A stretch of DNA of 34,297 nt from a virus, in the IMG/VR virus record IMGVR_UViG_3300047462_000691, positions 1 to 34,297 of that record; one strand, 5' to 3'. The translations under genes were made by a program, and so were the position numbers. Position 1 is the stretch's first letter. Each line of letters begins with the position of its first letter. The notes beneath the pieces are model-generated. The model did no database searches and was not told the origin of the DNA. It was given only the letters and a program-made list of their open reading frames with translations. This document shows, piece after piece, positions 2,160-25,777 of this stretch.

Positions 2160-2165
2160 TATTTA
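2160..2165 (-). promoter_or_regulatory. TAAATA box, 5 bases before the gp46-like start
   Basis: On the minus strand the box reads TAAATA and its TAA is also the stop of the spike gene. Five bases separate it from ATG 2154, and no Shine-Dalgarno sequence is present. It could be a late-promoter core or a translation signal; the sequence alone does not decide. Confidence 0.5.
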
Positions 2166-2759
2166 GGAACCATCATCGGGAGTGTTGTAGTCAGATACGG
2201 CGGTTCTGCCACCGCCCTCTTGAACACCCGTATGAGTATGATTGGCATCGAACTGTCTCATTTCTCTCAGGCTGTAGCTGGTGCCCGAGCTATGGTCGGT
2301 GATGTCACCAGTCACATCGAGATTGCCATTCACCTGCACAGTTGGAGCCGTGATATTCACGTTCCCAACTGAGGTGATATTGATCATCCCATTTGCGACA
2401 ATCTCGATATCCTGAGATGCAACCACCTTGATGAGTGTGCCGCCCTTGAAATAGAGCGAGTTGCCGGCATTGTCATAAAGTTGAACTTCGCCACTTGCCA
2501 TGCCGGTTGGGCGGAATCTTTGGTCATTCGACGCAATGAAGACACCATTGCTGTTGTCGCCTGCCAAGTTGACGGAGACATGATCACAGCCGACCAATGG
2601 CGAGCTTGCAAACCCATAGAGTTGCATGGAACTGGCGTCGCGTGTCTCGAATGGGCTGTGTTGCACCTGCACAAGCTGGACAAGCCCGCTTTCGTCAGCC
2701 GGGATGAGTGTCTTGCCGATTTTGACGGTGTGGATAGTGCGCAGGAAATCTTTGCTCAA
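2163..2759 (-). CDS. Baseplate spike / assembly protein V (Mu gp45 family)
   Basis: 198 residues. Mu gp45-type proteins form the trimeric membrane-piercing spike. The N-terminal OB-like part contains EVQLYDNAGNSLYFKGG (about residues 89-105). It is followed by short beta-repeats (ITSVGNVNITAPTVQVNGNL) and a DHSSGTSYSLREMRQFDANHTHTG tail, where the His-rich HTHTG is characteristic of these spikes. The start is TTG at 2759 in a TTGA overlap with the stop of the gp44-like gene, so translation is probably coupled to it. A protein starting at a later ATG would lose part of the N-terminal domain. Confidence 0.9.
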   Translation of the reverse strand: MSKDFLRTIHTVKIGKTLIPADESGLVQLVQVQHSPFETRDASSMQLYGFASSPLVGCDHVSVNLAGDNSNGVFIASNDQRFRPTGMASGEVQLYDNAGNSLYFKGGTLIKVVASQDIEIVANGMINITSVGNVNITAPTVQVNGNLDVTGDITDHSSGTSYSLREMRQFDANHTHTGVQEGGGRTAVSDYNTPDDGS

Positions 2760-3913
2760 GAGGCACCCCCATACGGGTTGATGGTGCCACCACCTGGATT
2801 CTGCGAATCACTAATCGCTTGCTGCAATGTCCAAGGGAACTGAGTAAGGTTTGTTGGTTCGATACTGAAGGCTGAGGGCGGCATACAGGTCAAGTCTGCC
2901 GTTGTCCCGTTGGTCAAATCACGTCGAAATGTAACCTCGGATATCAACCATTGGGCATTGACCAGCTTCAAGCTTGGGATGTTCAAGGTTATGAGTGCGT
3001 TGATTTCCCATAGCTTGCCTGTGTTATCCCGCCAGCTATCCACGGTAGCCCGCAAAATCTGTGATCTTCCAAAGCGGCGGTTCTTTTCGAAATCCGCGCG
3101 CGATTGGCTGAGGTCGGAGCCGTCATGATCACTTACGGTTTGTTCACTGACAATGCCGAGCGGGCGATAGCGTTTGACATCTGCGTCAGTGGCTTTGCCA
3201 TGAAAGAAAACGGATGCGCCCATCTCGGCAGCCTTGCCATCTGACAAGGTATAGACTGATTGCCAAACTACGTCATATTCCGAAAAGCGATCCGCCATGC
3301 TGTATGCACAGGAACCACGTTCCAGATTGATACCTTCGGTAATTCCGCTATTCATTTTGGAATTGCCAACTGTGTTCAAAACTAATGACCCGTCTGTGTC
3401 GTCATATACGAGCCAGCCCACGCCATTCCATCTTGCAATTCTGTCAACAATCTGAAATGGGGTCTCTCCAAAATTTGAGACAAACAGCGGAATGACTGGA
3501 CCATCTGAGCCGGTCAGATTTTTGACATTGATTTTGAACGGCGCTGCCAGTTGCTGCGCTATCGATGGCAGACTTACCCGATTCAATTGGTTGTAGTTTT
3601 GGATGAGGGCGGAGCAATCATGCAGGTCTTCGCATAGCGACCTACCAGTGATTGCGACTGTGTGATTGTTCTTGTCGATTTCCGGGATATAATCGTCAAT
3701 CCACCCGGTCAGCACCAAGTCATCACCAAGTTTGACCTGACAGGCAGCGCCCGGCGGAAGGATCACGGTTGACGGTGAACCATTCAGCTTCTCAGTCGCA
3801 CTGATAAAGAAATCCGATGGAAAATGCTCCAAGCCACGGGTGACGGATATATCCATCCAACCGGTGAAATCGACGCCTCCTACGGTGATTGTCAAAATAT
3901 CTGGACTGGTCAT
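2756..3913 (-). CDS. Baseplate hub protein (Mu gp44/P family)
   Basis: 385 residues, normal for the Mu gp44 family, a structural relative of T4 gp27 that forms the central hub carrying the spike. The N-terminus (TITVGGVDFTGWMDISVTRGLEHFPSDF) and the segment FQIVDRIARWNGVGWLVYDDTDGSLVLNTV (about residues 154-183) match the hub fold. The C-terminal half has the usual ITLNIPSLKLVNAQWLI strand pattern. The start ATG at 3913 overlaps the upstream stop by ATGA, and its own stop overlaps the TTG of the spike gene. Function is well supported by order and sequence. Confidence 0.9.
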   Translation of the reverse strand: MTSPDILTITVGGVDFTGWMDISVTRGLEHFPSDFFISATEKLNGSPSTVILPPGAACQVKLGDDLVLTGWIDDYIPEIDKNNHTVAITGRSLCEDLHDCSALIQNYNQLNRVSLPSIAQQLAAPFKINVKNLTGSDGPVIPLFVSNFGETPFQIVDRIARWNGVGWLVYDDTDGSLVLNTVGNSKMNSGITEGINLERGSCAYSMADRFSEYDVVWQSVYTLSDGKAAEMGASVFFHGKATDADVKRYRPLGIVSEQTVSDHDGSDLSQSRADFEKNRRFGRSQILRATVDSWRDNTGKLWEINALITLNIPSLKLVNAQWLISEVTFRRDLTNGTTADLTCMPPSAFSIEPTNLTQFPWTLQQAISDSQNPGGGTINPYGGAS

Positions 3914-4473
3914 TTGGACAGCACATTCACGACAAGCGGCATCTGACCCGGAAAGGGCGCATCCGGGTTGCGGGAGAGAATCTCATCCCCACGGGTGGCA
4001 TCGCCATAAAGCCTGTAGGCAATGACCTTGGCAGGTTTCCCGCCAAAGGTGGTTGTGGCGTCGGGCAGCATAGCGCCACGGGTCTGTAGGTCGCTTACAA
4101 CAGCCGCTCGGAGCACTCTTAGGGCTTGGTAGGTGCTGGTATCCCCGATATCGGCGGCATAGATGACTTCCGCGTCATAGAGCGGCGTCACCAACGCCAG
4201 CACCTGCGCGGCATCTTCTATGGATTGCGGGTTATAGGCGGCTGTGGCGTTCGCCAGGGCAGCCAAGGCACTCCGCCTTGCAAGGGCTGCTGTGGCGGCA
4301 GTCACGGTCTGCACATAGCCTCCTATGGTCGTAACCGAGGGGGGAGCCGATGCCGTGAAGCTCGCCATCCCGACCAACAGACGAATTTGGTCAGCGGGAT
4401 CATTTGCCGAACTCCGGTTAAGCTCATCGGCTGCCTGTAGGGCTGCCACGAAATTGTCGGTGATATTGGTCAT
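3910..4473 (-). CDS. C-terminal half of a split DNA circularisation protein (Mu gpN-like)
   Basis: 187 residues. The C-terminal motif VIAYRLYGDATRGDEILSRNPDAPFPGQMP (about residues 150-179) is the typical end of Mu gpN-type DNA circularisation/baseplate proteins. Here it is on its own ORF rather than fused to the N-terminal domain. The first half is helix-rich and Ala-rich. The gene starts with an ATGA overlap with the gene carrying the N-terminal domain. The two products together (277 + 187 residues) come close to the length expected for a single gpN. It may be an evolutionary fission or a sequencing frameshift; the clean ATGA overlap favours a real split. Confidence 0.75.
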   Translation of the reverse strand: MTNITDNFVAALQAADELNRSSANDPADQIRLLVGMASFTASAPPSVTTIGGYVQTVTAATAALARRSALAALANATAAYNPQSIEDAAQVLALVTPLYDAEVIYAADIGDTSTYQALRVLRAAVVSDLQTRGAMLPDATTTFGGKPAKVIAYRLYGDATRGDEILSRNPDAPFPGQMPLVVNVLSK

Positions 4474-5303
4474 AGCGAGGATGCGAAACTGGAAACTGAA
4501 TTATATGCGGAGATAACGTCGGTGCGCGTTGTGGTCGCCAACGCCATTGCCGAATTGACGCCAGATTCCAATGCTCGAACATCAGTTAATCCGGTCTTAA
4601 TCAGGTTCAAACCTTGTTGGGGTGCCGATAGGAAGCCATTACCATATCGACCAAATGACAATCTGCCTCCGGTTACGATATTGCCCACACCCTTGACCAA
4701 GTTCACGGCTCGGGTGGCATCATTTAGCAATCTCTGCGCTTGGTTCACATATTTGGAAACTGTGTCTACCACCGCGTTGACTGACCGTTCACCTGATTTA
4801 ATAGCGGCTCCAACCTCACTGAAAAAATCGTCAGAGGATGCATCTTTGAGAGATGCGGCTGCGCCTACCACGGTTGATTGCGTATTGGTGAGGGCAATTG
4901 GCGTGAGGTTTTGAATGTTTTGATTGGCTACAGCTATGAACTGCAAGTCCATAGATACGACTCGCCCTTCTCGCCAATCTTCGCTAAAGCCCGCGCCAAT
5001 CAGATTAGCGTCGAATGTGCCTAAGCTTGGATGGACAAGCTGCCCAGCGCCCTTGATGCGGCATTGTGCTTTGAAATAATCGCGCTGTTCATAGACATTA
5101 TCACCGATAAGAAAACCCCGAATGGTGATGATTTCAGTTTGCAACCCGAGGTCCTCGACGAAACAGGTGTCTCGATTTGGATACTCATGAGTCACCGTGC
5201 GCCGCCCAACGCCGCGCTCTGCGCCCTCTTCCATGGCGAAGCCCTGCCCACGCCAAGAGCCGTGTTGAAGGGTTTGTCCAAAAGGGGTGTCTACGAAAGG
5301 CAT
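4470..5303 (-). CDS. DNA circularisation protein, N-terminal domain (Mu gpN-like)
   Basis: 277 residues. The first 120 residues are a clear DNA_circ_N domain: MPFVDTPFG start, RRTVTHEYPNRDTCFVEDLG, IRGFLIGDNVYEQRD, and GAGQLVHPSLGTF. Family members were named for DNA circularisation but act as tail/baseplate components next to the tape measure protein. The C-terminal part is a low-complexity helical region with VNQAQRLLNDATRAVNLVKG. The start ATG at 5303 is preceded by a TAAATA box 5 bases upstream, overlapping the tape measure stop codon. The usual C-terminal domain is encoded by the next gene. Confidence 0.88.
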   Translation of the reverse strand: MPFVDTPFGQTLQHGSWRGQGFAMEEGAERGVGRRTVTHEYPNRDTCFVEDLGLQTEIITIRGFLIGDNVYEQRDYFKAQCRIKGAGQLVHPSLGTFDANLIGAGFSEDWREGRVVSMDLQFIAVANQNIQNLTPIALTNTQSTVVGAAASLKDASSDDFFSEVGAAIKSGERSVNAVVDTVSKYVNQAQRLLNDATRAVNLVKGVGNIVTGGRLSFGRYGNGFLSAPQQGLNLIKTGLTDVRALESGVNSAMALATTTRTDVISAYNSVSSFASSL

Positions 5304-5308
5304 GAGTA

Positions 5309-5314
5309 TATTTA
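5309..5314 (-). promoter_or_regulatory. TAAATA box, 5 bases before the gpN-like start
   Basis: Minus-strand TAAATA, sharing its TAA with the tape measure stop. Five bases (TACTC) separate it from ATG 5303. There is no Shine-Dalgarno sequence. Confidence 0.5.
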
Positions 5315-7375
5315 GGGACTTGGACCGAATGGCAGTGGCGCTGATACCCGAGGTGCGCCAGTGGTGACATTGCCTTTGCTCTTGACGTTCGCAGTGGTGC
5401 CCGGCGGAGCCCCATTAAGGTCAACCTGCACATGCACGGTGCTATCCGAACCGCCAGACACACCACCCGGCGTATTGGCTCCGGTGAATGGCAATGCTCC
5501 GGATGTGGGTGCCTTCCATGCGTCACCAGTTTGCGGGACAAGCTGATTCCTTGAGCCCGGCGGAGCAACCTTGCGCATGTAATCTCTGGTCTCCGTAATC
5601 GGAAACGAGTTCATGAAGTCAGCTTCGCTGATCTCGCCCTTACGCGGATCACCCAAGGCACCAAGCATTTCATCCATCTTGCCCGGTCCAGCATTGTAGG
5701 CACCTGCTGTGAGCATCGGCGTTTTATACTTCTGCGAGAGTTCTTGGTAATAAAGGTGTCCAAGGTTCTTGTTGTAATCAGCGTCCGTCTTGTACTTGTT
5801 TTCATCCCAAGCGATACCGTTCTTGAGGGCTGTCTCTCTCGCAGTTGCGGGCATAACCTGTGCAACGCCGATAGCGCCAGCGGATGAGGTCAATGGCTTA
5901 CCATCAGCACCAAATTGCTTACCGCCGCTTTCCTGATTGATCATCCGGTTCCACGTCTCATCAAAAGATGAGGTCGGAGCCATAGCTGCGGTATTGGCTC
6001 CGCTTGGTGCAGCGGTTGCAGAATCTGCGGATATGCGCCGTCGCTGATTGTAGTCTTCGAGCACTTTTCCGCTGCCATTCTCAGCAGCCTTGTTCCCGAG
6101 ATAAACCATGGTGGCTGCGGCTATAACCGGCACAAACGGCAAGATTGCTGAGACCGCGCCACCCAGCGCAGTGCCGCCAGCTACAGCTTCACCTGCACCA
6201 GAGGCAACACCCTCAGCCGCCGCAGCCCCCTTCCCAAGCAGGGAAAGCCCGCGTGTGGCTGCGACAATGCCGGCAATGTTGGCTCCAAAAGCAACCACAC
6301 TGGCGGCTGCACTAACACCTTTGCCGACCAACCACAGTTCGAATAGGTCTTTGCAGACATTCTCCAAGCCGCCAAATGTGTCTATCAGCTTGGATACCTT
6401 GTCTATCCAATGGTCGATGCCATCACCCACGGAATGCCAATTTATGCCTTCGATCCATTTGCTGAATCTGTCTATCCATTCGCCGAATTTAGAGGCTACA
6501 GCGTCGCGATTGGTCGCAATCAGGTCTGATAGGAAATCGAGTAATTTGGATGCGGCTGGGGCTGCCCTTTCAGATATGGACATGCCAAAGCCTTCAACAG
6601 CCAATGTCATCTTGGCTTGGCTGAATCGGAAGTCTTCGAGGTTCTTCGCACCTTCCGTATTGATCAGCCCATATTTCTCGGTGAGCTTGCGATTGCGGTC
6701 TAAGGCTTCGCTGCCCTGATTGATAATAGGCAGCATGCTTTCCGAGGCACCTTGGAAGATCATGGCTGCCAAGGCGGCTTGCTGCGTTGGATTCTTGATA
6801 GCGCGCAAGGCATCGATGGCTTGTGGCAGCGCGTCTTTGAGGTCAATTGCGCCAGAGGCAGTGCGTTTGATCTGAATGTGCAGCAGTTGGAAGGCTTGAG
6901 CGGCTTCTACATTCGAGCCGTTGATAGCTCCCTGCATGGTATCAGCCAAGGCTTTCAGCCCGGCTGTCATGTTATCCGACGATACTCCCGCGAGCTTGGC
7001 TGCGTTCTGGTAGCTCTGAAGCTGGGTGTTGGTCATGCCAAGGCGACGTGCGGTATTGGTTAGCTGATTGCTCCAATCCGCGAAACCTGCGGTAGCTCGA
7101 TAAAGCCCTGCGAGACTGGCAGCACCTGTCAAAGTACCCAATGGTGCTATGATTTTGCTGACTGCACTTGCGGTGTTGAGGGCTGTTCGTCCGAGGTTGC
7201 CTAAGCCATCTCTGACCTTGTTCAAGCCTGAGAGTTCGCCAAATCGCGACATTTCTTTTGCAAGTCTCTTGGCGGGTGCCTGAGCTTGCATCATGGATTT
7301 GTTTAAGTTTTTGAAAACCTTGGTGGCGTTGTCAGTCGCCTTGATATTGATCGAATATGCGCCATTTGCAGCCAT
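5312..7375 (-). CDS. Tail tape measure protein with C-terminal lytic transglycosylase domain
   Basis: 687 residues. The N-terminal 350 residues look like a Mu-type tape measure protein: a short start (SINIKATDNATKVFKNLNKS), then long helices with LSGLNKVRDGLGNLGRTALN. Hydrophobic, Ala/Gly-rich segments span about 355-430. Residues 470-605 form an SLT lytic transglycosylase domain: ESGG with the probable catalytic Glu482, GVAQVMPAT at about 503-511, and TAGAYNAGPG at 556-565. It sets tail length and probably opens peptidoglycan during DNA entry. The start ATG at 7375 has an AGGA at suitable spacing. It follows the frameshifted chaperone gene, as expected. No separate endolysin was found, so this is the only recognisable muralytic domain in the window. 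Confidence 0.93.
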   Translation of the reverse strand: MAANGAYSINIKATDNATKVFKNLNKSMMQAQAPAKRLAKEMSRFGELSGLNKVRDGLGNLGRTALNTASAVSKIIAPLGTLTGAASLAGLYRATAGFADWSNQLTNTARRLGMTNTQLQSYQNAAKLAGVSSDNMTAGLKALADTMQGAINGSNVEAAQAFQLLHIQIKRTASGAIDLKDALPQAIDALRAIKNPTQQAALAAMIFQGASESMLPIINQGSEALDRNRKLTEKYGLINTEGAKNLEDFRFSQAKMTLAVEGFGMSISERAAPAASKLLDFLSDLIATNRDAVASKFGEWIDRFSKWIEGINWHSVGDGIDHWIDKVSKLIDTFGGLENVCKDLFELWLVGKGVSAAASVVAFGANIAGIVAATRGLSLLGKGAAAAEGVASGAGEAVAGGTALGGAVSAILPFVPVIAAATMVYLGNKAAENGSGKVLEDYNQRRRISADSATAAPSGANTAAMAPTSSFDETWNRMINQESGGKQFGADGKPLTSSAGAIGVAQVMPATARETALKNGIAWDENKYKTDADYNKNLGHLYYQELSQKYKTPMLTAGAYNAGPGKMDEMLGALGDPRKGEISEADFMNSFPITETRDYMRKVAPPGSRNQLVPQTGDAWKAPTSGALPFTGANTPGGVSGGSDSTVHVQVDLNGAPPGTTANVKSKGNVTTGAPRVSAPLPFGPSP

Positions 7376-7381
7376 TGCAGA

Positions 7382-8226: not shown

Positions 8227-8247
8227 CCGACGCAATCACTGCGTTGG
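8227..8247 (-). other. Small hairpin between sheath and tube genes
   Basis: Arms of 8 bases (CCGACGCA and TGCGTTGG on the plus strand) enclose a 5-base loop. There is one G-U pair in plus-strand RNA and one mismatch in minus-strand RNA. No T-run follows, so it is not a clear terminator; an mRNA-processing or stabilising role for the abundant sheath/tube messages is possible. A TAAATA box lies beside it at 8256-8261. Confidence 0.35.
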
Positions 8248-8266
8248 CTTTGGGTTATTTACGCGA

Positions 8267-9993: not shown

Positions 9994-10018
9994 GCTCATA
10001 TTTAGCTAATGAGCATGA
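9990..10018. repeat. Perfect 10-base inverted repeat over a start codon
   Basis: Plus-strand arms TCATGCTCAT (9990-9999) and ATGAGCATGA (10009-10018) flank a 9-base spacer that contains most of a TAAATA box. In minus-strand mRNA this would fold into a hairpin covering both possible start codons of the DUF2635-like gene. It could be a translational switch, or a protein-binding operator. Confidence 0.6.
9999..10004 (-). promoter_or_regulatory. TAAATA box, 5 bases before the DUF2635-like start
   Basis: Minus-strand GCTAAATA followed by TGAGC and ATG 9993. It overlaps the spacer and one arm of the inverted repeat. No Shine-Dalgarno sequence is visible. Confidence 0.5.
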
Positions 10019-10557: not shown

Positions 10558-11025
10558 TTAGGTCTTCTTGAAAAAATTGATGTCTTTGATAACCGAATCC
10601 TGAATGTCTTTCGTGATAGACTCGATGTTTTTGTCGAGGGCGGTAGACAGGTATGGTCTCGGTGCCATGACGCGGGTTGTGGATGGCATATCCCTTCTGT
10701 TGCGGTTTCCCTTCTTGCCGCCTCCTCCCCGACTTCCTGACTCCAAAGACAGCGCATACTTCGCGGTATCAACCACGGAAACTGAGGTGCCATCTCTGGC
10801 GACTTTGACCTTGAGGGACTTGGCGAGATTGCCCGTGAAATTGGCGGGAGCTTCATTAGGCGCGGAGGCTACGTGTCCGTTGCGCATGATGCCGCTGCCT
10901 GCACTGTCGCGGATCAACTCGACTGTTGTTTTTTTGACTCGATTGCCGGCACCACCCATGACCTGCTTTAGAAAACTTTTATCGTATTTTAGGGTGTATT
11001 CTGGGATGTCGATTTTCACCTTCAT
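10558..11025 (-). CDS. HK97 gp10-like neck/minor tail protein
   Basis: 155 residues. It is in the position of HK97 gp10-family proteins. The Lys-rich N-terminus (VKIDIPEYTLKYDKSFLKQV), the segment PANFTGNLAKSLKVKVARDGTSVSVVDTAKYALSLESGS, and RVMAPRPYLSTALDKN near residue 120 are typical of the family, where a PARPFL-like motif sits near the C-terminus. The start ATG at 11025 overlaps the upstream adaptor stop by ATGA, so translation is probably coupled. It probably acts at the head-tail joint. Confidence 0.78.
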   Translation of the reverse strand: MKVKIDIPEYTLKYDKSFLKQVMGGAGNRVKKTTVELIRDSAGSGIMRNGHVASAPNEAPANFTGNLAKSLKVKVARDGTSVSVVDTAKYALSLESGSRGGGGKKGNRNRRDMPSTTRVMAPRPYLSTALDKNIESITKDIQDSVIKDINFFKKT

Positions 11026-11411
11026 GGCAGCATCTCATGGCTATCTAACATGCAATCCATGATCAAAAACCGCTGCCGACCGCTCAAAGGCATGATCCGT
11101 CTTACCTGATAGGTATCTCGATAAATCGTGTTGTCGGGTTGAATCGAGTCATGCAGGACGAACCAAAAAATATTTGGAATCTGTGTGTATCGAACCGTAA
11201 TCCTGTGAGTCACCTGGTTTTCCGTGTTCACACTGGCGGTTAGGCTGCTGTAGAACGCAATTGTGCTAATTGGAACGATGTTGGCGGACACAGTTTGCTG
11301 CATCGAGAAATCGTCTACGGTATTGTTGTTTGTCAATGAGGGCACCTGTAGGCGTTGTGTCAGCACAACGCGGTATCTCAAGTCACCAATCTTTGGGATG
11401 TCATATTCCAT
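11022..11411 (-). CDS. Head-tail adaptor / head closure protein
   Basis: 129 residues, a usual size for phage head-tail adaptor proteins of the SPP1 gp16/HK97 closure type. The start IGDLRYRVVLTQRLQVPSLTNNNTVDDF is the family signature (G-x-L-R-x-R-V-x-L-x-x). It is followed by VTHRITVRYTQIPNIFWFVLHD and RDTYQVRRIMPLSGRQRFLIMDCML. It closes the capsid after packaging. The start ATG at 11411 has a TAAATA box 5 bases upstream and no Shine-Dalgarno sequence. Confidence 0.85.
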   Translation of the reverse strand: MEYDIPKIGDLRYRVVLTQRLQVPSLTNNNTVDDFSMQQTVSANIVPISTIAFYSSLTASVNTENQVTHRITVRYTQIPNIFWFVLHDSIQPDNTIYRDTYQVRRIMPLSGRQRFLIMDCMLDSHEMLP

Positions 11412-11416
11412 GACCG

Positions 11417-11422
11417 TATTTA
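11417..11422 (-). promoter_or_regulatory. TAAATA box, 5 bases before the head-tail adaptor start
   Basis: Minus-strand CTAAATA, then CGGTC, then ATG 11411. It lies 12 bases past the stop of the connector gene. Confidence 0.5.
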
Positions 11423-12263: not shown

Positions 12264-12269
12264 TATTTA
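12264..12269 (-). promoter_or_regulatory. TAAATA box directly behind the capsid terminator
   Basis: Minus-strand CTAAATA, CCAGC, then ATG 12258. Only about ten bases separate the box from the terminator hairpin, which leaves no room for an ordinary -35/-10 promoter. That makes the box itself a promoter candidate for the connector genes. Confidence 0.55.
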
Positions 12270-12279: not shown

Positions 12280-12309
12280 AAAAAGGCGAGGATTTCTCCC
12301 CGCCTTTTT
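12280..12309 (-). terminator. Rho-independent terminator after the capsid gene
   Basis: Plus-strand arms AAAAAGGCG (12280-12288) and CGCCTTTTT (12301-12309), extended inside by GGA/TCC after one mismatch. In minus-strand RNA the stem ends in a U-run. It lies 25 bases after the capsid stop, with a smaller stem GAGCG/CGCTC at 12315-12329 between. It is symmetric enough to act in both directions. Confidence 0.8.
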
Positions 12310-13820: not shown

Positions 13821-14483
13821 TTAGTCTCTGTTATTTAGTGCAATCACACGCAAACGCCGTGCAAACTGTTCCTTGGTAAACGCATCAGTTGCTTTAATTT
13901 GCTCGATGTCTGCTGATTTAGGCATGTCATCGGGTGTCTGAGTTGCCAGATTTGCAGTCTCAGTCTGTTCTTCTATCAAGGCATAGGGATTGGCTGGCAC
14001 ATTGACGATGCTGAACTCATACAAGTCGGCTTTCAGGATATCGATGCCGTTTGGTCGGTTGTCCAAGTCGTCTGAGAATTCCCATTCGCGAGCTTGGAAT
14101 CCGACACTGACTGCCGACAGATAGCCCGTTTTGCAAAGCTGATAAATGCACTCGGCTCTTTCACCAGCGCACGGCACAGACTGATCAATAAACTCGACGG
14201 TGCCTTTCAGCTTGCCATCTATCACCGCTATATCGACGCATTTTCCAACAGGGAACGAATCGGTGTCGTGCTGCCACATCACCAACGGGTTCTTTTTGTA
14301 ATTGGACAAATCCCAACCCGTCTGTTTGACGACATCTTGATCTCTGTCCACGTCCTCGGTTGACAGAGTGAAGGTCAGTTGCCTTGGCAAACCAGTTTCG
14401 CTTACGTCGCTGAGATATTGTTTCGCCAACTTGGCATTGTGGGACTTCTGTTTTTTGAATTGGTCGCTTGAGAGATATTTCAT
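13821..14483 (-). CDS. HK97-family prohead protease
   Basis: 220 residues. A U35/S78-type serine protease that cleaves the capsid scaffold region during maturation. LPRQLTFTLSTEDVDRDQDVV at 32-52 is the conserved start. WQHD carries the probable catalytic His72, and YLSAVSVGF the probable catalytic Ser126. It lies between portal and capsid, the standard HK97 order. The ATG at 14483 overlaps the portal stop by ATGA. The last coding bases contain CTAAATAAC, which encodes Leu-Asn-Asn, the only clear box inside a gene end. Confidence 0.93.
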   Translation of the reverse strand: MKYLSSDQFKKQKSHNAKLAKQYLSDVSETGLPRQLTFTLSTEDVDRDQDVVKQTGWDLSNYKKNPLVMWQHDTDSFPVGKCVDIAVIDGKLKGTVEFIDQSVPCAGERAECIYQLCKTGYLSAVSVGFQAREWEFSDDLDNRPNGIDILKADLYEFSIVNVPANPYALIEEQTETANLATQTPDDMPKSADIEQIKATDAFTKEQFARRLRVIALNNRD

Positions 14484-15832
14484 TCGTTATCATCCTGAGT
14501 GGCATCGTCATCAGCCGGTGTGTCTGCGGCTGGTGTGCCGGAATTCGGGCTTGTCGGTGTGGGTTTGGAATCGGGTGATTGATTGAGGGGAAACCTGTGC
14601 TCCGCGCCTTTGCCATCTGGCAGAGGCGGCAAGCCTTCGCGACCTCTGACCTCATCCACGTTGTATATGCCGTTGAGCAAGGCGACCTGATACGCGTCGA
14701 ATCGGGCTTTGGTGTCGCCTTTTAGCAGATTCATAAAGTCGAATTTGATCTTGTATCGCTTGCGTTCGTCCGAAAACAGCAAACGGCGTTCAAAGGCTTT
14801 TTCAATCTTGGTGGTAATTGGCGTCAATGAGCTATCGACGTAGGCTTGCTGTTGGGATTCCAAGCTCGAATAGCTAACCCGGTTCATGCCGCCAATTTTG
14901 TGCGGCGGGATGTTGAACATTCTGGCAATTTCTTCGACGGTGAAGCTTCTGGCTTCGAGAAGTTGCTGATCTTTTGGTGAGATATCGAACGGCTTGAACT
15001 CCATCCCTTCTTCGAGAACTGGTGTTTTACCGGCATTTTGCACTGAGCTATGGCGTTCCTGCCATTGCTGCGCGAGATTCTTTCTGGTTTCTGTGCTGAG
15101 CTTGCCGGGATATTGCAAAACACCCGATACCGTGGTGCCTTGGGCGAAGATACGGGCTGCATGGATTTGCGTTTGCAGAGATAGTGAAAACACGTCTTGA
15201 GATGCTGAGATGGGCGAAATACCCATGACGCCATCAGAAACGGATAAGTTCTTGATGTGGACGACATCCTCGGCGGGCACAGCCATTTTGCTGCCACCAA
15301 GCAATTTGTGTGTCAGGGTGTAGGTAATCACGCCATTGATACTTGAGACGTAGACTGACACCATATCTGGTGAGATTGGCAAAAGCATGTTGGGCTCGCC
15401 TTTGCCGTTTCTGCCGACATAGACAAAGGCGTTGCCTCTTAGAGACAGGCTCATCACGATGAAGCTGATAAAATCGAAGCTGGTTTGCCAGTCATTGGGT
15501 TCGTCAAACAGATCAACCAACGGGTGGCTCTCGGTGCTGACAAAGCCACCCGTTGCCAATTTCTTTTGCATGAGGATGGGCAGGCAAGCCACGTCTTCGG
15601 ATAAGGTTCGCACTGCGCAATAGACAGAGGCGGATGCCAAGCTCGAATAATGTGAGACTGGCAAGCCTGTGTGTGTTGGATTGAGCCCGTTGAGCAACAG
15701 GGAAGGGGATGGGTTGGTGGTTGACCAGCCGCCATCTTTTTGGATTGTGATTGCGCCAGCTTTGTTGAAATCCAGATTTAGGGCTGGAATGGTCGCAATA
15801 CTGGTTTCAGGTTTCTTGGATTTCTTGAACAT
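14480..15832 (-). CDS. HK97-family portal protein
   Basis: 450 residues, standard for the HK97 portal family. Recognisable parts: YCAVRTLSEDVACLPILMQKK (about 71-91), HPLVDLFDEPND, FISFIVMSLSLRGNAFVYVGRNGKG, VHIKNLSVSDGVMGISPI, and VEEIARMFNIPPHKIG followed by SYSSLESQQQAYVDSSLTPITTKIEKAFERRLL. The C-terminus is Pro/Thr/Asp-rich and ends DDDATQDDNE. It forms the dodecameric DNA gate of the capsid. The start at 15832 is preceded by CTAAATAATGG. Confidence 0.95.
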   Translation of the reverse strand: MFKKSKKPETSIATIPALNLDFNKAGAITIQKDGGWSTTNPSPSLLLNGLNPTHTGLPVSHYSSLASASVYCAVRTLSEDVACLPILMQKKLATGGFVSTESHPLVDLFDEPNDWQTSFDFISFIVMSLSLRGNAFVYVGRNGKGEPNMLLPISPDMVSVYVSSINGVITYTLTHKLLGGSKMAVPAEDVVHIKNLSVSDGVMGISPISASQDVFSLSLQTQIHAARIFAQGTTVSGVLQYPGKLSTETRKNLAQQWQERHSSVQNAGKTPVLEEGMEFKPFDISPKDQQLLEARSFTVEEIARMFNIPPHKIGGMNRVSYSSLESQQQAYVDSSLTPITTKIEKAFERRLLFSDERKRYKIKFDFMNLLKGDTKARFDAYQVALLNGIYNVDEVRGREGLPPLPDGKGAEHRFPLNQSPDSKPTPTSPNSGTPAADTPADDDATQDDNE

Positions 15833-15836: not shown

Positions 15837-15842
15837 TATTTA
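15837..15842 (-). promoter_or_regulatory. TAAATA box, 4 bases before the portal start
   Basis: The junction CTAAATAATGGATG is identical, base for base, to that before the plus-strand fibre gene at 25782. The spacing here is 4 rather than 5 bases. No Shine-Dalgarno sequence is present. Confidence 0.5.
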
Positions 15843-18114: not shown

Positions 18115-18311
18115 GACGAAAATCCTAATTTGTTTTTGTTATTTAGGATTCGGCTTGGGGTATTGGGGTCAGGCAACTGGATTTACCGAAAATTCGTGTA
18201 GGTGCGATTGGTGGCAGTCCCAGACTCATACTTTTCGGACACCCCCATAGGTTGTAGTCTTGGTCTGCAACGGTTGGATGGTTGCAATTGGTTTTGTCTT
18301 GTTGAGTTATG
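18115..18311 (-). other. Gap between HNH gene and terminase genes, possible cos region
   Basis: About 197 bases without a convincing gene. Very short ORFs occur, for example 28 residues from ATG 18229 ending in a TAAATA box at 18140-18145. In HK97-like phages with an HNH gene next to P27 terminase, the cohesive-end site usually lies around here. I see no diagnostic symmetry other than a run of C's at 18241-18246. A second TAAATA box at 18313-18318 overlaps the HNH stop. Confidence 0.35.
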
Positions 18312-18972: not shown

Positions 18973-18989
18973 TATTTATGGCTTAAATA
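18973..18989. promoter_or_regulatory. Back-to-back TAAATA boxes in a 27-base divergent gap
   Basis: TATTTA (18973-18978) serves the minus gene at 18967 and TAAATA (18984-18989) the plus gene at 18995. They form an inverted pair with a 5-base spacer. Each box is exactly 5 bases from its ATG. Two genes with their backs this close leave no room for ordinary promoters inside the gap. Confidence 0.6.
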
Positions 18990-19524: not shown

Positions 19525-20718
19525 TTAGTATGATCCGCCATCCACAACACCCGACACTATGCCAAGAGAGCCTAAATCGGTCAGGGCTACGGAATTCGTG
19601 ATCAATCCTTTAGTGTTTACGGTGAGCCCGTAGAACGTTCCTGCTGTGGCTCCAGAGGTCGCAAGGCTGAGTGATACCGTGTTGCTGGTCGAGGTGCCTG
19701 ACACGTCCCCAGATACGACAAGGGGGCTCGCTATGGCGCCCGAAACGTCGGAAACTGAAAGCGTGATGGCTCCAGTTCTGCCGCTAACGCTAACCACCTC
19801 CGAACTGATGCCGTCCAGCTTTTGCCATGTGCTTGTCCCAAAGATAGCCCAGTCGCCAGCATTCCATGAGTTCAAGCCGTCGAGCGAGGTGCTTCCCGCT
19901 GTCGCAACCACGTAATAGTGCCCGGTTATCCCTGTGCCGCTCGCCAAGCTCGGTGAGTTCGTGCTGGCGTTCCATGTGCCTTGGTAGCTGACAGCACCAA
20001 CCAAGCTGGACGGAATTTGACCTGTAGTAAGGTGTCCGGTTCCGTCGAGGGTTGCCACGCCATTGGCTGCCCCAAGGGTGCTGGTGCTGATTGGCGTATA
20101 GCCCAAGGCGTTGCTGATGTCCGTGTTGGCAAGCACCACAGCGCCTGTCTTGCCTGCTACTGAGCTTACTGGATACACGATAGCTGTCGTGCTTACTGAG
20201 GTAATTCGTCCTTTTGCGTCCACCGTGATATTCGGCACAGCGGTGCCGGTTGAACCGTAGGTGCCAGGTGATGAATTTACCGTGGCAAGCGTAAGCACCA
20301 CACTATTGGCACTCTCAACTCCGCTCACATCGCCTGACGCTGTGAAGTTGCCGGAGCTACCGCCAACGTTCGAGCCCGCGACTACGCGCCCATATTGATC
20401 AACACTAACTGTATTGTAGGTGCCCGCTGTGACTCCGGAGTTTGCCAACACAGTCGATATGCTGATGCTGCTGTTGCCTTGAAAAGTTGAACTTCCGGTC
20501 AGGGCTCCGGACAGTGATATCGTGACGGGATTCGTCAGCGCGTTCGCCGTGGCAGGAATTCCACCTAAAATGACAATCGAGTTGGCGCCCGCCACCGACT
20601 TTTGAAAGCTCAACGTGCCATCGTAAACATTTAAATAAAGCAAGCCACTAACCGCGGAATTTGCGCTGGGATAATTGCCGGGGGTGGAAGTGCGGTGTTG
20701 GAGGACTGAAAATGACAT
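19525..20718 (-). CDS. Tail-fibre-like protein with repeated shaft motifs
   Basis: 397 residues. The first 95 residues (MSFSVLQHRTSTPGNYPSAN, then GIPATANALTNPVTISLSG) are related to the two plus-strand fibre proteins. Three shaft repeats follow in the form GTY..ttVd.kGRv (TAGTYNTVSVDQYGRVVAG, about 118-125 for VDQYGRVV; TVDAKGRITS; LTVNTKGLITN). A VSGRTGAITLSVSDVSG segment lies near the end. It ends abruptly in VVDGGSY without an obvious receptor-binding domain. It is probably a virion fibre or a fibre anchor. ATG 20718 is preceded by CCTAAATG and a hairpin. It lies away from the baseplate genes, which is unusual. Confidence 0.75.
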   Translation of the reverse strand: MSFSVLQHRTSTPGNYPSANSAVSGLLYLNVYDGTLSFQKSVAGANSIVILGGIPATANALTNPVTISLSGALTGSSTFQGNSSISISTVLANSGVTAGTYNTVSVDQYGRVVAGSNVGGSSGNFTASGDVSGVESANSVVLTLATVNSSPGTYGSTGTAVPNITVDAKGRITSVSTTAIVYPVSSVAGKTGAVVLANTDISNALGYTPISTSTLGAANGVATLDGTGHLTTGQIPSSLVGAVSYQGTWNASTNSPSLASGTGITGHYYVVATAGSTSLDGLNSWNAGDWAIFGTSTWQKLDGISSEVVSVSGRTGAITLSVSDVSGAIASPLVVSGDVSGTSTSNTVSLSLATSGATAGTFYGLTVNTKGLITNSVALTDLGSLGIVSGVVDGGSY

Positions 20719-20724
20719 TTAGGG

Positions 20725-20747
20725 ATACCAAACTGAGTGTTTGGTAT
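20725..20747. repeat. Perfect 9-base inverted repeat upstream of the fibre gene
   Basis: Arms ATACCAAAC (20725-20733) and GTTTGGTAT (20739-20747) with a 5-base loop, ending in a TAAATA box on the minus strand (20745-20750). It lies 7 bases before ATG 20718. It may be a leader hairpin, a weak terminator for the 113-residue gene, or an operator. Confidence 0.55.
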
Positions 20748-20766
20748 TTAGGCTACTGGGTCGGTT

Positions 20767-21357: not shown

Positions 21358-21770
21358 CGCTCATCCCCTTGCGTCAAAGCGCAGGTCATCAGCAATTGCT
21401 CGACCAAGTTTCTAACAGTGGGATTGGTGGAGCGCGTTGCATTCAGGATGGTAAGGAGCTTCACCGGGTCTGGAATCTGCGAGGCGTGGCAATTTTCCAA
21501 CGCGAAACAGATCTGATATTCCCATTGCCTATTTGGCTCGTATGTCAATTGTCCGATTTGGAATTCTGGTGAGGTATGCGAGGGCGGCACACGCTGAGGC
21601 AATGGGATTTGTGCAGCCTGTTGCATGGGCGGTGGCAGAACCGCACCAGTCAGGAACGCGGCATATGAGTTCATGATTGTGTTATGCAGGTCGGCTGGGG
21701 TGATAGTTCCGTCAACCACGCCTTCCAACGTCGCATCTGAAAGCATAATCTGACTTGTTAGATTTGTCAT
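21354..21770 (-). CDS. Unknown 138-residue protein
   Basis: Starts MTNLTSQIMLSDATLEGVVD and has a Pro-rich middle (VLPPPMQQAAQIPLPQRVPP). A C-terminal helical part follows (IPDPVKLLTILNATRSTNPTVRNLVEQLLMTCALTQ). ATG 21770 has AGGA 11 bases upstream. The leader contains a TAAATA box (21805-21810) beside an inverted repeat, 34 bases before the start. Unrecognised. It heads a chain of four coupled small genes to 20767. Confidence 0.6.
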   Translation of the reverse strand: MTNLTSQIMLSDATLEGVVDGTITPADLHNTIMNSYAAFLTGAVLPPPMQQAAQIPLPQRVPPSHTSPEFQIGQLTYEPNRQWEYQICFALENCHASQIPDPVKLLTILNATRSTNPTVRNLVEQLLMTCALTQGDER

Positions 21771-21810
21771 AAAAGTGTTTCCTAAAATGTATATTGTATG
21801 TTAATATTTA

Positions 21811-21852
21811 GCATAATTTACAGAGTAAATCTATATATTTGTTAAATTATGC
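21811..21852. repeat. Perfect 10-base inverted repeat, AT-rich loop
   Basis: Arms GCATAATTTA (21811-21820) and TAAATTATGC (21843-21852) around a 22-base AT-rich loop. The distal arm covers the stop codon of the 193-residue gene. It is not GC-rich enough for a strong terminator, so operator or weak terminator are both possible. Confidence 0.5.
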
Positions 21853-22423
21853 CTTTAGATTTGCGATTGGCAATCATCCTATCGAGTTGAATTTGTGTCT
21901 GTCGTTCGTGTGGGTTCATCCGGCTATAGCGGGTGAAAGGCTCAGGTTCTTTACTTAACCAAATGTCGCCATGGGCGAGATGAAACACCATTTCGTCAGT
22001 TTCATTTAACATCCTAAGAAACAAGGCTGTTTGAACACGCTGGGCAGCGCCAATAACATATTTGTCGCTGGTTTCCTGCCAGCCTCTCGGAATGACATCC
22101 CGACACCATTTTTTCATTTCTGACATGCGGGCTTTTTCCAAATGAAAAAATTGCCGGTCTCGTCTCGACCACCCAGCAGCCGTTTTTAAGCTCGAATGAA
22201 ACGTGATATATGGCTTTACCTCGCCGTTTGGATCAAGATATCCAGCATCAGAGATAACCGTGTATGTGCCTGTGTAGCCGGCTTTATCAAGCAAATACGC
22301 TGGATAAAACTCAACGCGGCTATTTGTATCAATTTCATACTCGCAATTTGTCATCATACATTTGACACGTCCGAGTTGGTGTATCCGTGTTTCGGCGTCT
22401 ATGTTCATAATTTTGTCTTTCAA
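21842..22423 (-). CDS. Unknown 193-residue protein, replication-module neighbour
   Basis: The ORF starts with TTG 22423 in a TTGA overlap with the primase stop; an in-frame ATG at 22408 is the alternative. Notable parts: RVKCMMTNCEYEID (a possible small Cys pair), a mixed beta region (EFYPAYLLDKAGYTGTYTVI), and a charged helical C-terminus ending HERQTQIQLDRMIANRKSKG. I do not recognise the family. Downstream placement after the primase suggests a DNA-metabolism or regulatory role, but this is inference. Confidence 0.6.
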   Translation of the reverse strand: MKDKIMNIDAETRIHQLGRVKCMMTNCEYEIDTNSRVEFYPAYLLDKAGYTGTYTVISDAGYLDPNGEVKPYITFHSSLKTAAGWSRRDRQFFHLEKARMSEMKKWCRDVIPRGWQETSDKYVIGAAQRVQTALFLRMLNETDEMVFHLAHGDIWLSKEPEPFTRYSRMNPHERQTQIQLDRMIANRKSKGII

Positions 22424-23526
22424 ATAAGAGAAACTTGGGCTCTGAGACGGTTGATGCGTTGGCGATATTCCAAGTCGGGTTTCACCTCAGGTTTCACCTC
22501 GGGTCTAACCGATGGTGTCGGGGCAGCCTGCAACTTCAGGTTTCGCAAAGGTTGGTTCTGATTGAGACTTGCAAGGTCGGCATCACTCATCGCCTGCTTG
22601 ATCCGCTCTTGAAGCTGACGACCGGTGTATTTGTTTTGAAAGTAATTTGCGGCTTGGCTGTCAATCTCAGCCGCGACCACCTGCATATCGCCAAAGGTCA
22701 GCATGCCGCGTGAGCGATAAAACGCGGTTTTGAGCAGGCTATACATGGTCTGCCAATGACCGTTCGGCGGGTTGGCATAGCTTGCCAACTCATCCTTGCT
22801 CAGCCAGTCGGCAGGGTTGCTAGCCCTCAAGCTGGTGATAACTGCATTGGGATGCGGGTTAGAGGGCTTGGAAGGGCACTTAGCCCGGCTATAGCCGTAA
22901 TCCCGCAGGTATGTGTCGGTTGGGTCGGCAAGCTCTTGCCGTGCCTTCAAGGCGAGCGTGGCATCGACGCACATGGGCTTACCGGCTTGGAAATAGGTCG
23001 GGGCATGATGGGCAGGTGCAATGGCATAATGGGCGGCATCAGCCATGCTCATGTCGGCTTGGCGGTTGCAGGCTAACCAGCTTACCCATGCCGTCATGGG
23101 TCTGACTTCGGCTCTGGTCATAGGTCTATCGGTCTCGATGACCAGTCGATAACGCGGCTTAGCTGGTGTCGAGCTATAGCTGGTGTAGCCGAACAGTGAG
23201 ACACCGGGCAGCCGTGCGACCACATCATCCCATTGCACCGGCACCCCGACGAAATCATCAGCTACGTCGATGTCGATTACCAGACTGGTGATTTCATCAA
23301 TTTCGCCATCCTTGTGGCGTTTGTCTTGTAGGAACTTGGCAGGCACCCATCCCTTATGCGCGTCCTTTGGCAAGCCTTCCTCACCCTTGAGGTCTTGCAA
23401 CACGCATCCCATTAGGTCTGCAAAGCTGTCCAAGGTAGCAGAGAAATTGATTTTGCCACGGTGCAACAGAAAACTTCGCGTCTTTTGATCAAAAAATATC
23501 TCGGTCATAATTGAAATGTGTTGCAT
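22420..23526 (-). CDS. AEP-type primase-like replication protein
   Basis: 368 residues. SLVIDIDVADD places an Asp-x-Asp pair at about 85-87. GYTSYSSTPAKPRYRLVIE (about 113-131) matches the second AEP/primase-polymerase motif, the S/T-rich turn followed by pRyRlv. These residues would form the nucleotidyl-transfer site of a RepB'/prim-pol-like enzyme. The C-terminal part has YANPPNGHWQTMYSLLKTAFYRSRGM and a PTPSVRPEVKPEVKP linker before a basic end. It works with the helicase two genes upstream. ATG 23526 is 1 base after the preceding stop. Confidence 0.72.
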   Translation of the reverse strand: MQHISIMTEIFFDQKTRSFLLHRGKINFSATLDSFADLMGCVLQDLKGEEGLPKDAHKGWVPAKFLQDKRHKDGEIDEITSLVIDIDVADDFVGVPVQWDDVVARLPGVSLFGYTSYSSTPAKPRYRLVIETDRPMTRAEVRPMTAWVSWLACNRQADMSMADAAHYAIAPAHHAPTYFQAGKPMCVDATLALKARQELADPTDTYLRDYGYSRAKCPSKPSNPHPNAVITSLRASNPADWLSKDELASYANPPNGHWQTMYSLLKTAFYRSRGMLTFGDMQVVAAEIDSQAANYFQNKYTGRQLQERIKQAMSDADLASLNQNQPLRNLKLQAAPTPSVRPEVKPEVKPDLEYRQRINRLRAQVSLI

Positions 23527-23527
23527 A

Positions 23528-24016
23528 TCAGTATGTTTTCAAAATTGTAAAATTGGGATTGGTCGAGTTGAATGACGTAAGAACTGCTTTTAATTTTTCG
23601 TGTTTCACGCATAGCTCTTTGATTATCTCAAACAGGTCGACATCATCAATTTTAATTTTGCTTGGTATGCTCAAAGCGTCATCAACACGCACATTGGCAT
23701 ATGCGACCTTGTGCCACATCGCGGGTGTGCCATTCTTGCGTGTTCCGGGGCACGTAGCTGGCGGATCGGGAAATGGGTGTGTGTGGTTTACGAGATGGCA
23801 TACCTCACCGGCGCCTGCCACAAATGCGTGCCAGCCCCATGTCAGTATGTCCGGCTCCATCTCGAACAAAAATCGTCGGTCGGTTATATCAGTTTTTGTC
23901 CCATCTCGGTTATTTCGTATGAACTTGGCTGGCTCATCAATGAGCAACAAAGATGGGTCGTAGGTGATGACGACGCGGTTGTGATTTGATGAATGAGTCT
24001 TGAACGGCGAATACAT
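23528..24016 (-). CDS. Unknown 162-residue protein between helicase and primase
   Basis: Starts MYSPFKTHSSNHNRVVITYD. Contains TKTDITDRRFLFEMEPDILTWGWHAFVAGAGEVCHLVNH, a Pro/Cys-containing turn (PFPDPPATCPGTRK), and an Ile/Lys-rich C-terminus. No family recognised. The position between helicase and primase suggests single-strand binding or a helicase loader, but this is a guess from context. AAGGAA lies well spaced before ATG 24016. Confidence 0.65.
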   Translation of the reverse strand: MYSPFKTHSSNHNRVVITYDPSLLLIDEPAKFIRNNRDGTKTDITDRRFLFEMEPDILTWGWHAFVAGAGEVCHLVNHTHPFPDPPATCPGTRKNGTPAMWHKVAYANVRVDDALSIPSKIKIDDVDLFEIIKELCVKHEKLKAVLTSFNSTNPNFTILKTY

Positions 24017-24231
24017 GTTATTTCCTTTAAATTTTTCTTTATTCGTAAATTTGTCTTCTTTGCAACAATAAATTTTTGACCCAACTCCTTATAGAGAAAG
24101 AAAACGCGACAGCGTTTTCTCTCTATAGGGGGTATTGCGTATTGCGTTTTCTTTTACTCAATTAAATCAATGACTTACAGAAACGCAACTGACCTAAAAA
24201 ACTCGATGTTGCGGTATCAAAAGTTGCGTTT
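24017..24231. other. Intergenic repeat region in the replication module, origin-like
   Basis: 215 AT-rich bases between helicase and the 162-residue gene. GCGTTTTC occurs as TTGCGTTTTC at 24142-24151 and 24224-24233, as GCGTTTTC in the hairpin arm at 24112-24119, and reversed as GAAAACGC at 24100-24107. A TTGCGT at 24135-24140 and a reversed AAACGCAA at 24181-24188 are added. Such iterated words next to helicase and primase genes are typical of a replication origin or an iteron control region. No ORF of note. Confidence 0.5.
24090..24127. terminator. Long hairpin with U-rich arm, terminator or origin structure
   Basis: Arms ATAGAGAAAGAAAACGC (24091-24107) and GCGTTTTCTCTCTAT (24112-24126) pair over about 15 bases with a 2-base bulge, plus T24090-A24127. 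The loop is GACA. It lies about 100 bases past the helicase stop and before the next gene, so it may end or attenuate the helicase transcript. Its arm words also match the surrounding repeats. Confidence 0.5.
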
Positions 24232-25395
24232 TCAGCCTAATTTCAGCCTTGGGTCTCCCATAATTTTGCATGAGAACTTGGTTCCCATACGTGAGACTCG
24301 TTTAACGACATTATCGTATGTCGTCGTGATATCCACATATCCCGTGTCATCACCCATGTTAGCTGGAATGGCGTTTTTTAATCTGTTGCTGCCTTCTGTG
24401 TTATCACTGATTTGAAGTTGCGTTGCTCGCATACCGGCAATCAGTTTTTTCTGCGACAAGGTTTGTCCGTCCTGCATCACGGATGCGATGGCTTGCTGGT
24501 CGCCATGAATACGAGCTTGCGACTGCATTTGCGACTTGCTGGGCTCATTGGTGTCATGCACCACAACCAAGCTATGCCGTGGATCGCCCATGTGGTCGGG
24601 GTATTTGATGTCGATTTCCTTGACGGAAATTCCTTCGATCCAATACCCGTCTTCGTCGTCTTTTTGCTTAGAGACAAACAGACGCAATTTATTTTTGTCG
24701 TCTTTATCGCGTTCAAGAAAAAGTTCAGTTTCCAGCGAACATTTGAGGTTGTAGCTGCCACGAGCCCCACGAGACACATCCTTGCCTGTGTGGTGAATAA
24801 GCATCACGGCACACTCGAAATTTTCTTTGATTCGGTCGGCTGAGGCAACAGCAACACCCATAGCAGCCGCTGAGTTTTCATCTCCCCCAACCATGCTGCG
24901 AGCTAAGGTATCAATCACCACGAACGCAAATTTGTGAGGTAGGTTCTCGATAAAATAAATCAGATCATCAACCTCGGTTTTGTCCAAGAGATTGACCGGT
25001 GCGGTGATGGTTTTTAGCCTCGTATTTTTGATTTTTTCATCGATGAAACCGTGTTCGATACGCCAAGCCCGGACACGTTTGCGCATGCCGTGTGCGCCCT
25101 CAGCGGCAATATACAGGACATCTACGGCATCCATTTCCTTGCCTCGCCAATCCATGCCGTAGGCGAGTCTTAAGCATATATCGAGGGCAAGAAAGCTTTT
25201 GCAGTGCCCTGATGGCGCATACAAAACCGACAGGCTTTGTTTTTGGATCAGCTTGGGAATCAAATAATCATTTTCGGGAATGATTTCCATGTCCTCGATG
25301 GACAGGATTGGAAATTGTTTTCTCTCGCGAGGCTGCGAGGCTAATTTTTGGCTGGCAATAAACTTGTCGATGTCTGTGAAATCTTGGTTATCCAT
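24232..25395 (-). CDS. RepA-like replicative helicase (RecA-fold ATPase)
   Basis: 387 residues. RecA/AAA_25-type ATPase: Walker A APSGHCKS (60-67), Walker B FVVIDTLARS (158-167), LIHHTGKDVSRGARGSYNLKCS (199-220) with the sensor and arginine-type residues, and a C-terminal winged-helix-like segment after 290. The invariant Gly of GK(S/T) is replaced by Cys65; Lys66 and Ser67 remain. It probably unwinds DNA at the nearby repeat region for the AEP-type primase. ATG 25395 has only a weak GGA upstream. Upstream lies a terminator and a TATAAATA region, hinting at attenuation. Confidence 0.85.
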   Translation of the reverse strand: MDNQDFTDIDKFIASQKLASQPRERKQFPILSIEDMEIIPENDYLIPKLIQKQSLSVLYAPSGHCKSFLALDICLRLAYGMDWRGKEMDAVDVLYIAAEGAHGMRKRVRAWRIEHGFIDEKIKNTRLKTITAPVNLLDKTEVDDLIYFIENLPHKFAFVVIDTLARSMVGGDENSAAAMGVAVASADRIKENFECAVMLIHHTGKDVSRGARGSYNLKCSLETELFLERDKDDKNKLRLFVSKQKDDEDGYWIEGISVKEIDIKYPDHMGDPRHSLVVVHDTNEPSKSQMQSQARIHGDQQAIASVMQDGQTLSQKKLIAGMRATQLQISDNTEGSNRLKNAIPANMGDDTGYVDITTTYDNVVKRVSRMGTKFSCKIMGDPRLKLG

Positions 25396-25420
25396 TGTGA
25401 AATCCGTGGGTTAAAATGTT

Positions 25421-25457
25421 AAAAAGCCGGGTAGTTGCTGCCACAACCACCCGGCTT
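25421..25457 (-). terminator. Terminator upstream of the helicase gene
   Basis: Arms AAGCCGGGT (25424-25432) and ACCCGGCTT (25449-25457), plus an inner GTTG/CAAC. On the minus strand T's follow the stem. It stands 26 bases before ATG 25395, so it can either attenuate helicase expression or stop transcripts from the right. Confidence 0.8.
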
Positions 25458-25636
25458 CTTATTTTTAACCTTTACGACTTTTCACATTTTAGACCCATGT
25501 ATTTATACCAAATGGGGTAGGGAAAAGCAATAACGAAATAAAATAATGCAGATAATGATGTGGCAGCACCAACTAATATTATTTATAAATCAATTTAATT
25601 TGACAAAGCAATATATAACTTAAAAATAAGTTAGCC

Positions 25637-25660
25637 CCAGACGGGCTTCAATCCGTCTGG
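25637..25660. repeat. Perfect 8-base hairpin in the regulatory gap
   Basis: CCAGACGG (25637-25644) and CCGTCTGG (25653-25660) around an 8-base loop. There is no immediate T-run on either strand, so termination is uncertain; an operator or leader hairpin is equally possible. Confidence 0.5.
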
Positions 25661-25771
25661 AGTTTGAGAAAAATTATTTTGTTTTGATCTAACCGGTATT
25701 TTACGTGAGCGAGTAATTTTGCTCACCCTGTATTTATACGCGGCTCGAATGCCTATTGCAATTTCTAAATC

Positions 25772-25777
25772 TAAATA
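25772..25777 (+). promoter_or_regulatory. TAAATA box, 4 bases before the plus-strand fibre start
   Basis: CTAAATAATGGATG, the same 14-base junction as before the portal gene on the other strand. ATG is at 25782. No Shine-Dalgarno sequence is present. Confidence 0.5.

Follow-up and report, generated by a model that had tools for sequence, protein, structure and literature searches.

What is the role of a short, nearly invariant hexamer placed at a fixed distance before a series of phage genes that have no Shine-Dalgarno sequence (SD)? This question is raised by the IMG/VR virus record IMGVR_UViG_3300047462_000691, a partial genome of 34,297 bases analysed here over its whole length (hereafter the window), in which TAAATA, often in the form CTAAATA, recurs just upstream of ATG codons. 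A preliminary description of the window had proposed that this box is a late promoter similar to those of phage T4 and gives leaderless mRNAs. Our comparison of the window with related prophages makes it probable that the box is a T4-late-like promoter, used in an unrelated group of temperate phages and giving mRNAs that are either leaderless or freed from a hairpin.

TAAATA Is Enriched before the Virion Genes of Four Phages

The window encodes on its minus strand the late genes for the small and large terminase, portal, protease, capsid, connectors, sheath, tube, tape and baseplate. It also encodes a serine integrase and a replication helicase, whose presence indicates that the phage is temperate; it is a temperate myophage combining an HK97-type head module with an SfV/Mu-like tail. 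Searches with the window proteins matched only distant virion relatives, most of them without boxes, and scans of viral collections queried with the window hub and sheath alone found no relatives. When the baseplate hub was searched against 299 genomes of the Acetobacteraceae, the family to which Novacetimonas maltaceti belongs, three prophages were obtained, G029, G143 and G275, and from these relatives alone we infer the host of the window phage. Their virion modules are syntenic with that of the window, at a protein identity of about 35-50%, and carry the same TAAATA box on the coding strand. The early regions of the four phages have almost no genes in common, although the box is common to them all. 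G029 is the same prophage as IMG/VR UViG_2914497741_000003, their sheaths being 100% identical. The G143 prophage may be decaying, as its large terminase and baseplate J-like protein (gpJ) are each broken across two reading frames (L126 14714-16446 and L095 11231-12339). Two IMG/VR fragments, L051 and L116, have all their TAAATA copies on the coding strand (7 and 4, versus none on the other), some of them in junctions, and are possible further members of the group.

The window contains 21 boxes on both strands, versus 8.7 in dinucleotide shuffles (standard deviation 3.1, largest 17). About 18 had been seen by eye in one orientation, and 18 are indeed counted on the late-gene (minus) strand, with 3 on the plus strand and 4.7 expected per strand. 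The coding and opposite strands carry 12 and 3 boxes in G029, 13 and 5 in G143, and 8 and 0 in G275, for per-strand expectations of 1.4, 1.8 and 0.5, respectively. In the four phages together, TAAATA shows the largest excess among 4,055 hexamers under an order-4 Markov model, with 52 occurrences on the coding strand versus 22.6 expected, and 11 on the opposite strand. The impression that boxes lie mostly in gene junctions is borne out: all 25 exact boxes of the four virion modules are at most 75 nt upstream of an annotated start, in zones that make up 8.6% of the module (p about 2e-27). Genes that begin within an ATGA or TTGA overlap (hub, g4473 and gpV) are box-free, as had been noticed. The distance from box to ATG peaks at 4 nt (7 cases) and 5 nt (10 cases), with no more than two cases at any other spacing between 0 and 15 nt. 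The base preceding TAAATA is most often C (43%), and the sixth base after it (post-box 6) is a purine in 24 of the 31 boxes without an adjacent ATG (77%). Upstream of 51 boxes, no position exceeds 0.25 bit and no -35-like conservation is seen.

Several trivial origins of the box were considered and rejected. Chance or AT-richness is ruled out by the shuffle, strand and hexamer statistics. A stop-codon artefact, in which the upstream gene ends on the TAA of the box (2163 and 5312), accounts for a minority of boxes only. The box is not a host habit either, since 397 genomes of the host family contain CTAAATA-N5-ATG about as rarely as its reversed control. Plain co-inheritance with the tail module was discarded, most hub, gpJ or sheath relatives showing no TAAATA enrichment. 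A tree of the hub places 66 box-free rows in one group (support 91/79) that excludes the four box phages and the doubtful L051; as the branches are long, this separation is only suggestive. No publication linking TAAATA with a phage late promoter was found in a literature search.

Orthologous Junctions and Two Classes of Boxes

The search of relatives for the box, which had been suggested in the preliminary description, shows it at orthologous junctions in all three prophages. The gpJ junction is boxed in the four phages, and so is the junction before the DUF2635-like gene, at 5 nt in the window and G029, 27 nt in G143 and 30 nt in G275. The portal junction is boxed in the window (4 nt), in G029 (8 nt) and, with a hairpin, in G143 (30 nt). 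The gp46 gene has a box in the window (5 nt) and G029 (4 nt), and the DNA-circularisation N gene has one at 5 nt in both; at these two junctions, G143 and G275 have an SD instead. Far boxes precede the capsid gene in the window and G143, and the first fibre gene is boxed in the three prophages. Among 22 shared genes, the 9 boxed in the window include 5 of the 6 boxed in G029 and all 4 boxed in G143 (hypergeometric about 0.02 for each), an overlap that is indicative only, because junctions with room for a box are favoured. TAAATA also precedes a small protein of unknown function, with an MDV start, in both G275 (L074 4393-4719) and G143 (L126 3690-4061), the two matching at 38%.

Two classes of boxes can be distinguished on the basis of gene starts deduced from open reading frames and orthologues rather than determined by proteomics; the sets used for their statistics, control and test alike, are small. 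Adjacent boxes are followed by ATG in 18 of 18 cases (7 of them in the window), with little or no SD, in line with what had been reported for the window. The median SD duplex energy is -1.7 at these starts versus -5.4 at far boxes (p 1.5e-5). Far boxes lie 24-60 nt from the start, where an SD is more frequent, and are often associated with a hairpin in which the SD or the start is covered by the 3' arm, the 5' arm being located within or upstream of the box. Among the clearest cases are window 32581-32612, described below, and, in G143, L126 13708-13742, where CCUUUGUUGA/UCAACAAAGG is formed with the SD AAAGGAG; others are the G143 fibre hairpin (CCUCGCCAG/CUGGCGAGG) and the DUF2635 hairpins of G143 (UCCUCGA/UCGAGGA) and G275 (GCGCUACCCC/GGGGCAGCGC). 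As the latter two stems are unrelated in sequence and have the same arrangement, this comparison speaks for selection on the layout of the predicted hairpin.

The 5' segment upstream of the predicted +1, which would not be transcribed from the box, is complementary to the ribosome-binding site (RBS) beyond shuffles (Fisher p 8e-8), 7 of the 17 far-box genes being individually below p 0.05. Box-free control genes of the same phages show no such excess (p 0.32). Trimming the RNA at post-box 6 raises the probability that the RBS is unpaired from 0.42 to 0.57 (p 3e-4), a gain in accessibility that exceeds that of controls (p 0.009). The boxes, their conservation, the two classes, the complementarity to the SD and the hairpins, as predicted folds, can all be read from the genomes themselves.

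In the window, nine adjacent boxes have the very spacings given in the preliminary description. On the minus strand, the distance is 5 nt for boxes 2160-2165 (gp46-like baseplate gene 1705-2154, ATG 2154), 5309-5314 (N-like gene 4470-5303, ATG 5303), 9999-10004 (DUF2635-like gene, ATG 9993), 11417-11422 (head-tail joining gene 11022-11411, ATG 11411), 12264-12269 (ATG 12258) and 18973-18978 (ATG 18967), and 4 nt for box 15837-15842 (portal 14480-15832, ATG 15832). On the plus strand, it is 5 nt for box 18984-18989 (ATG 18995) and 4 nt for box 25772-25777 (ATG 25782 of a tail-fibre gene). Box 9999-10004 itself overlaps an ATG (TAAATATG), which makes 9993 the likely start. The divergent starts 18967 and 18995 are 27 bp apart, each with its own box, and two leaders would not fit between them. 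Directly upstream of box 12264-12269 and 3' of the major capsid gene, an intrinsic terminator is predicted on the minus strand at 12280-12309 (fold -20.2 kcal/mol, z -4.2), with a run of T after it.

All far boxes of the window discussed here are on the minus strand. Those at 1696-1701, 8256-8261 and 20745-20750 had been recorded earlier as merely standing farther away; they are present, and are not leftovers, most far boxes having an SD or a hairpin before the start. Box 1696-1701 is 27 nt before GTG 1668 of gpJ, and a 9-bp hairpin (1674-1696; fold -10.8 kcal/mol, z -4.8) occupies the interval, the last base of the box being also the first of its 5' arm. Box 8256-8261, before the tail tube gene (start 8204), is followed by a hairpin at 8227-8247, and box 20745-20750, before the fibre gene 19525-20718, is accompanied by the stem 20747-20739/20733-20725. 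Box 32602-32607, before gene 28392-32576, lies within the 5' arm of the hairpin AGACCUAAA..UUUAGGUCU (32581-32612), which covers the AGG of the SD; for this RBS, the predicted unpaired probability increases from 0.34 in the readthrough RNA to 0.85 when the RNA is cut at the predicted +1. The remaining boxes are at 13832-13837, 54 nt before the major capsid start 13777, at 21805-21810, 34 nt before ATG 21770 with an SD-like AGGAA, and at 18140-18145, upstream of the small terminase region, with a possible stem AATCCTAA/TTAGGATT read by eye.

A Probable Late Promoter Controlling Transcription and Translation

These features would be accounted for if TAAATA were the core of a late promoter of the T4/Aeh1 type, that is, an element at -12 to -6 that lacks a -35 box and directs transcription from a point 5-6 nt past its end. 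With a spacing of 4-5 nt between box and ATG, the mRNA would begin at or beside this codon and be translated in a leaderless manner; with a spacing of 24-40 nt, it would carry a short, SD-bearing leader. In many far-box cases, readthrough RNA from upstream would fold a hairpin over the SD or start, and initiation at the box would drop the 5' arm of this hairpin, freeing the SD or start. In both classes, translation would require RNA begun at the box: the virion genes would be silent on readthrough transcripts, whether prophage or early, and would be jointly switched on late. Such interchangeable gates would explain the silence of capsid and tail genes in the prophage despite readthrough transcripts.

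The original proposal of a leaderless promoter is strengthened, since the box is kept at orthologous junctions of diverged phages, replaces the SD when adjacent, is followed by a purine at the predicted +1, is preceded in one case by a terminator and has the Aeh1 consensus as its core; the far, hairpin-associated class had been missed. Two further observations support a promoter: a predicted terminator immediately precedes the 12258 box, and sigma-70-like promoters are fewer than expected (8 versus 16.3 in shuffles). More tentatively, it is possible that this unrelated temperate lineage reads a T4-like box with a late initiation factor of its own, presumably phage-encoded or phage-modified, and makes translation conditional on the mRNA start by two interchangeable devices, the leaderless start and the promoter-in-hairpin.

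As in the preliminary description, where no T4-type sigma factor had been recognised, Pfam and PHROGs searches of the tested non-virion proteins of the window and its relatives revealed no sigma family, the coverage of early genes being incomplete and such that a divergent gp55 could escape. PF04542 (sigma-70 region 2), searched in three host genomes, has no match inside the prophage regions, G029 and G143 included. Neither gp33 nor gp45 is among the family matches obtained, no search having been aimed at either. In G143, the gene at L126 7876-8090, 5 nt behind a box, encodes a small protein with a cysteine pair (zinc-ribbon) and a helix-turn-helix, which weakly matches sigma-70 region 4 and late transcriptional activators.

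Several points weigh against a promoter of this kind. No sigma-like protein is recognised in the window or the examined prophage regions, blastp found no non-virion gene common to the four phages, and the zinc-ribbon/helix-turn-helix protein of G143 is not common to the others. The purine preference is modest, the gpJ and 28392 boxes of the window carrying T at post-box 6, and the box system is clear in four phages only. Finally, 10 of the 17 far-box genes are individually not below p 0.05 for complementarity, and pairing of the RBS is not seen where the far box is 51-60 nt away (capsid, tube). The far boxes of the window capsid, window tube and G143 capsid do not fit the hairpin rule.

Alternative Roles of the Box

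One alternative is that the box works as an RNA element: it would take the place of the SD by docking ribosomes or enhancing translation, and the hairpins would fold the spacer away so as to bring the box near the start. The fixed spacing of 4-5 nt, the missing SD at adjacent boxes and the exchange of box and SD between orthologues would all suit such an element, as would the gpJ hairpins, which leave few bases between stem and start. It is nevertheless unlikely: many boxes are 24-60 nt from the start, beside a normal SD, and in several cases (window 32602-32607, L126 13721, L095 2259 and 13500, L183 2682) the hairpin hides the SD instead of exposing it, its 5' arm covering the box or preceding it. 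Moreover, UAAAUA has, to our knowledge, no evident complementarity to the 3' end of 16S rRNA, a terminator directly precedes one box, and the sequence is that of a known promoter core.

The terminator also bears on the idea, which we consider just as improbable, that UAAAUA is a site where an endonuclease cuts long transcripts into processed, leaderless or hairpin-freed mRNAs. Cleavage would account for leaderless ends and for 5' arms that precede the box, and an AU-rich site would be suitable for RNase E-like enzymes. It fits poorly, however, with so strict a hexamer, with its preferred 4-5 nt offset and its identity to the Aeh1 late promoter, and related phages of the same host family have no boxed sites, though they would share the host enzyme. 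Least probable, by a small step, is that the boxes are -10 elements of leaderless promoters read by a host sigma factor without any phage factor. That no phage sigma is recognised, and that the box is common to four phages whose early genes hardly overlap, would favour it. Against it, CTAAATA-N5-ATG is no commoner than its reversed control in the host family, sister phages of the same family have no boxes, the upstream sequence has no -35-like conservation, and the T expected at the last -10 position is missing. We therefore prefer the T4-like late promoter to these explanations.

Other Features of the Window

Gene 28392-32576 (minus strand) encodes a secreted-looking protein of 1,394 aa, with a signal peptide, repeats and two domain copies weakly similar to glycosyl hydrolase family 17, without match in phage records. 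As it stands behind a box-in-hairpin, its product looks like a late-expressed phage cargo. Three fibre-like genes, 19525-20718 (-), 25782-26342 (+) and 26346-27884 (+), have similar short segments, and the string TAAATAATGGATG is common to 25782 and the portal. Rfam and tRNA scans of the window gave no matches. Outside the window, two soil-type viral contigs, L100 (16260) and L110 (16220), have a long inverted repeat 3' of the tail genes with a single TAAATA at its 5' arm (GGCTCAAAGATCCTA..TAGGATCTTTGAGCC in L100).

Comparison with Known Systems

The box resembles the Start-Associated Sequences (SAS/ESAS) of cluster K mycobacteriophages in being a short, one-orientation repeat 3-7 nt before ATG, in some cases with inverted repeats, and absent from the host (PMC3203893). 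The Start-Associated Sequence is, however, a 13-bp element, GGGATAGGAGCCC, that contains the SD core AGGAG and belongs to non-structural genes, whereas TAAATA does not correspond to this sequence, has no SD and is found mainly on virion genes.

Another parallel is provided by T4 e, soc, 49, I-TevI and segB and by Aeh1 mobE: there a hairpin hides the RBS, its 5' strand contains the late promoter, and only the late RNA is translated (PMC3014915, PMC2988022). The far boxes likewise stand in or next to a 5' arm upstream of the predicted +1, with the SD or start in the 3' arm. Unlike these cases, the box phages have promoter-in-hairpin arrangements at several virion junctions of one module, with orthologous stems that are unrelated (DUF2635 in G143 and G275) and that alternate with leaderless starts in relatives. 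The system would offer a clean test for leaderless translation in Alphaproteobacteria.

T4-type late promoters are a known feature of large lytic phages that have gp55, gp33 and gp45. Their core, TATAAATA or a variant, is matched by the TAAATA present in all boxes, and no -35 element is found upstream of the 51 boxes. In the T4-like phage Aeh1, the late-promoter consensus is CTAAATA, placed at -12 (PMC1524935), and the box shares with it the core, the predicted -12 to -6 distance, the lack of a -35 element and the virion genes downstream. By analogy, the box thus appears to work like a T4/Aeh1 late promoter, but we do not class it as a member of this type, because gp55 was not found, gp33 and gp45 were not searched for, and the starts are predicted only. 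It also differs from T4 and Aeh1 in belonging to an unrelated temperate myophage, about 43 kb in size, that combines a serine integrase with an HK97-type head module and an SfV/Mu-like tail module, without a recognised gp55 and with predicted starts that fall on the ATG itself. The same core at the virion genes of such small temperate phages would suggest either that a late sigma factor has escaped notice or that the box has converged with the T4-type late promoter.

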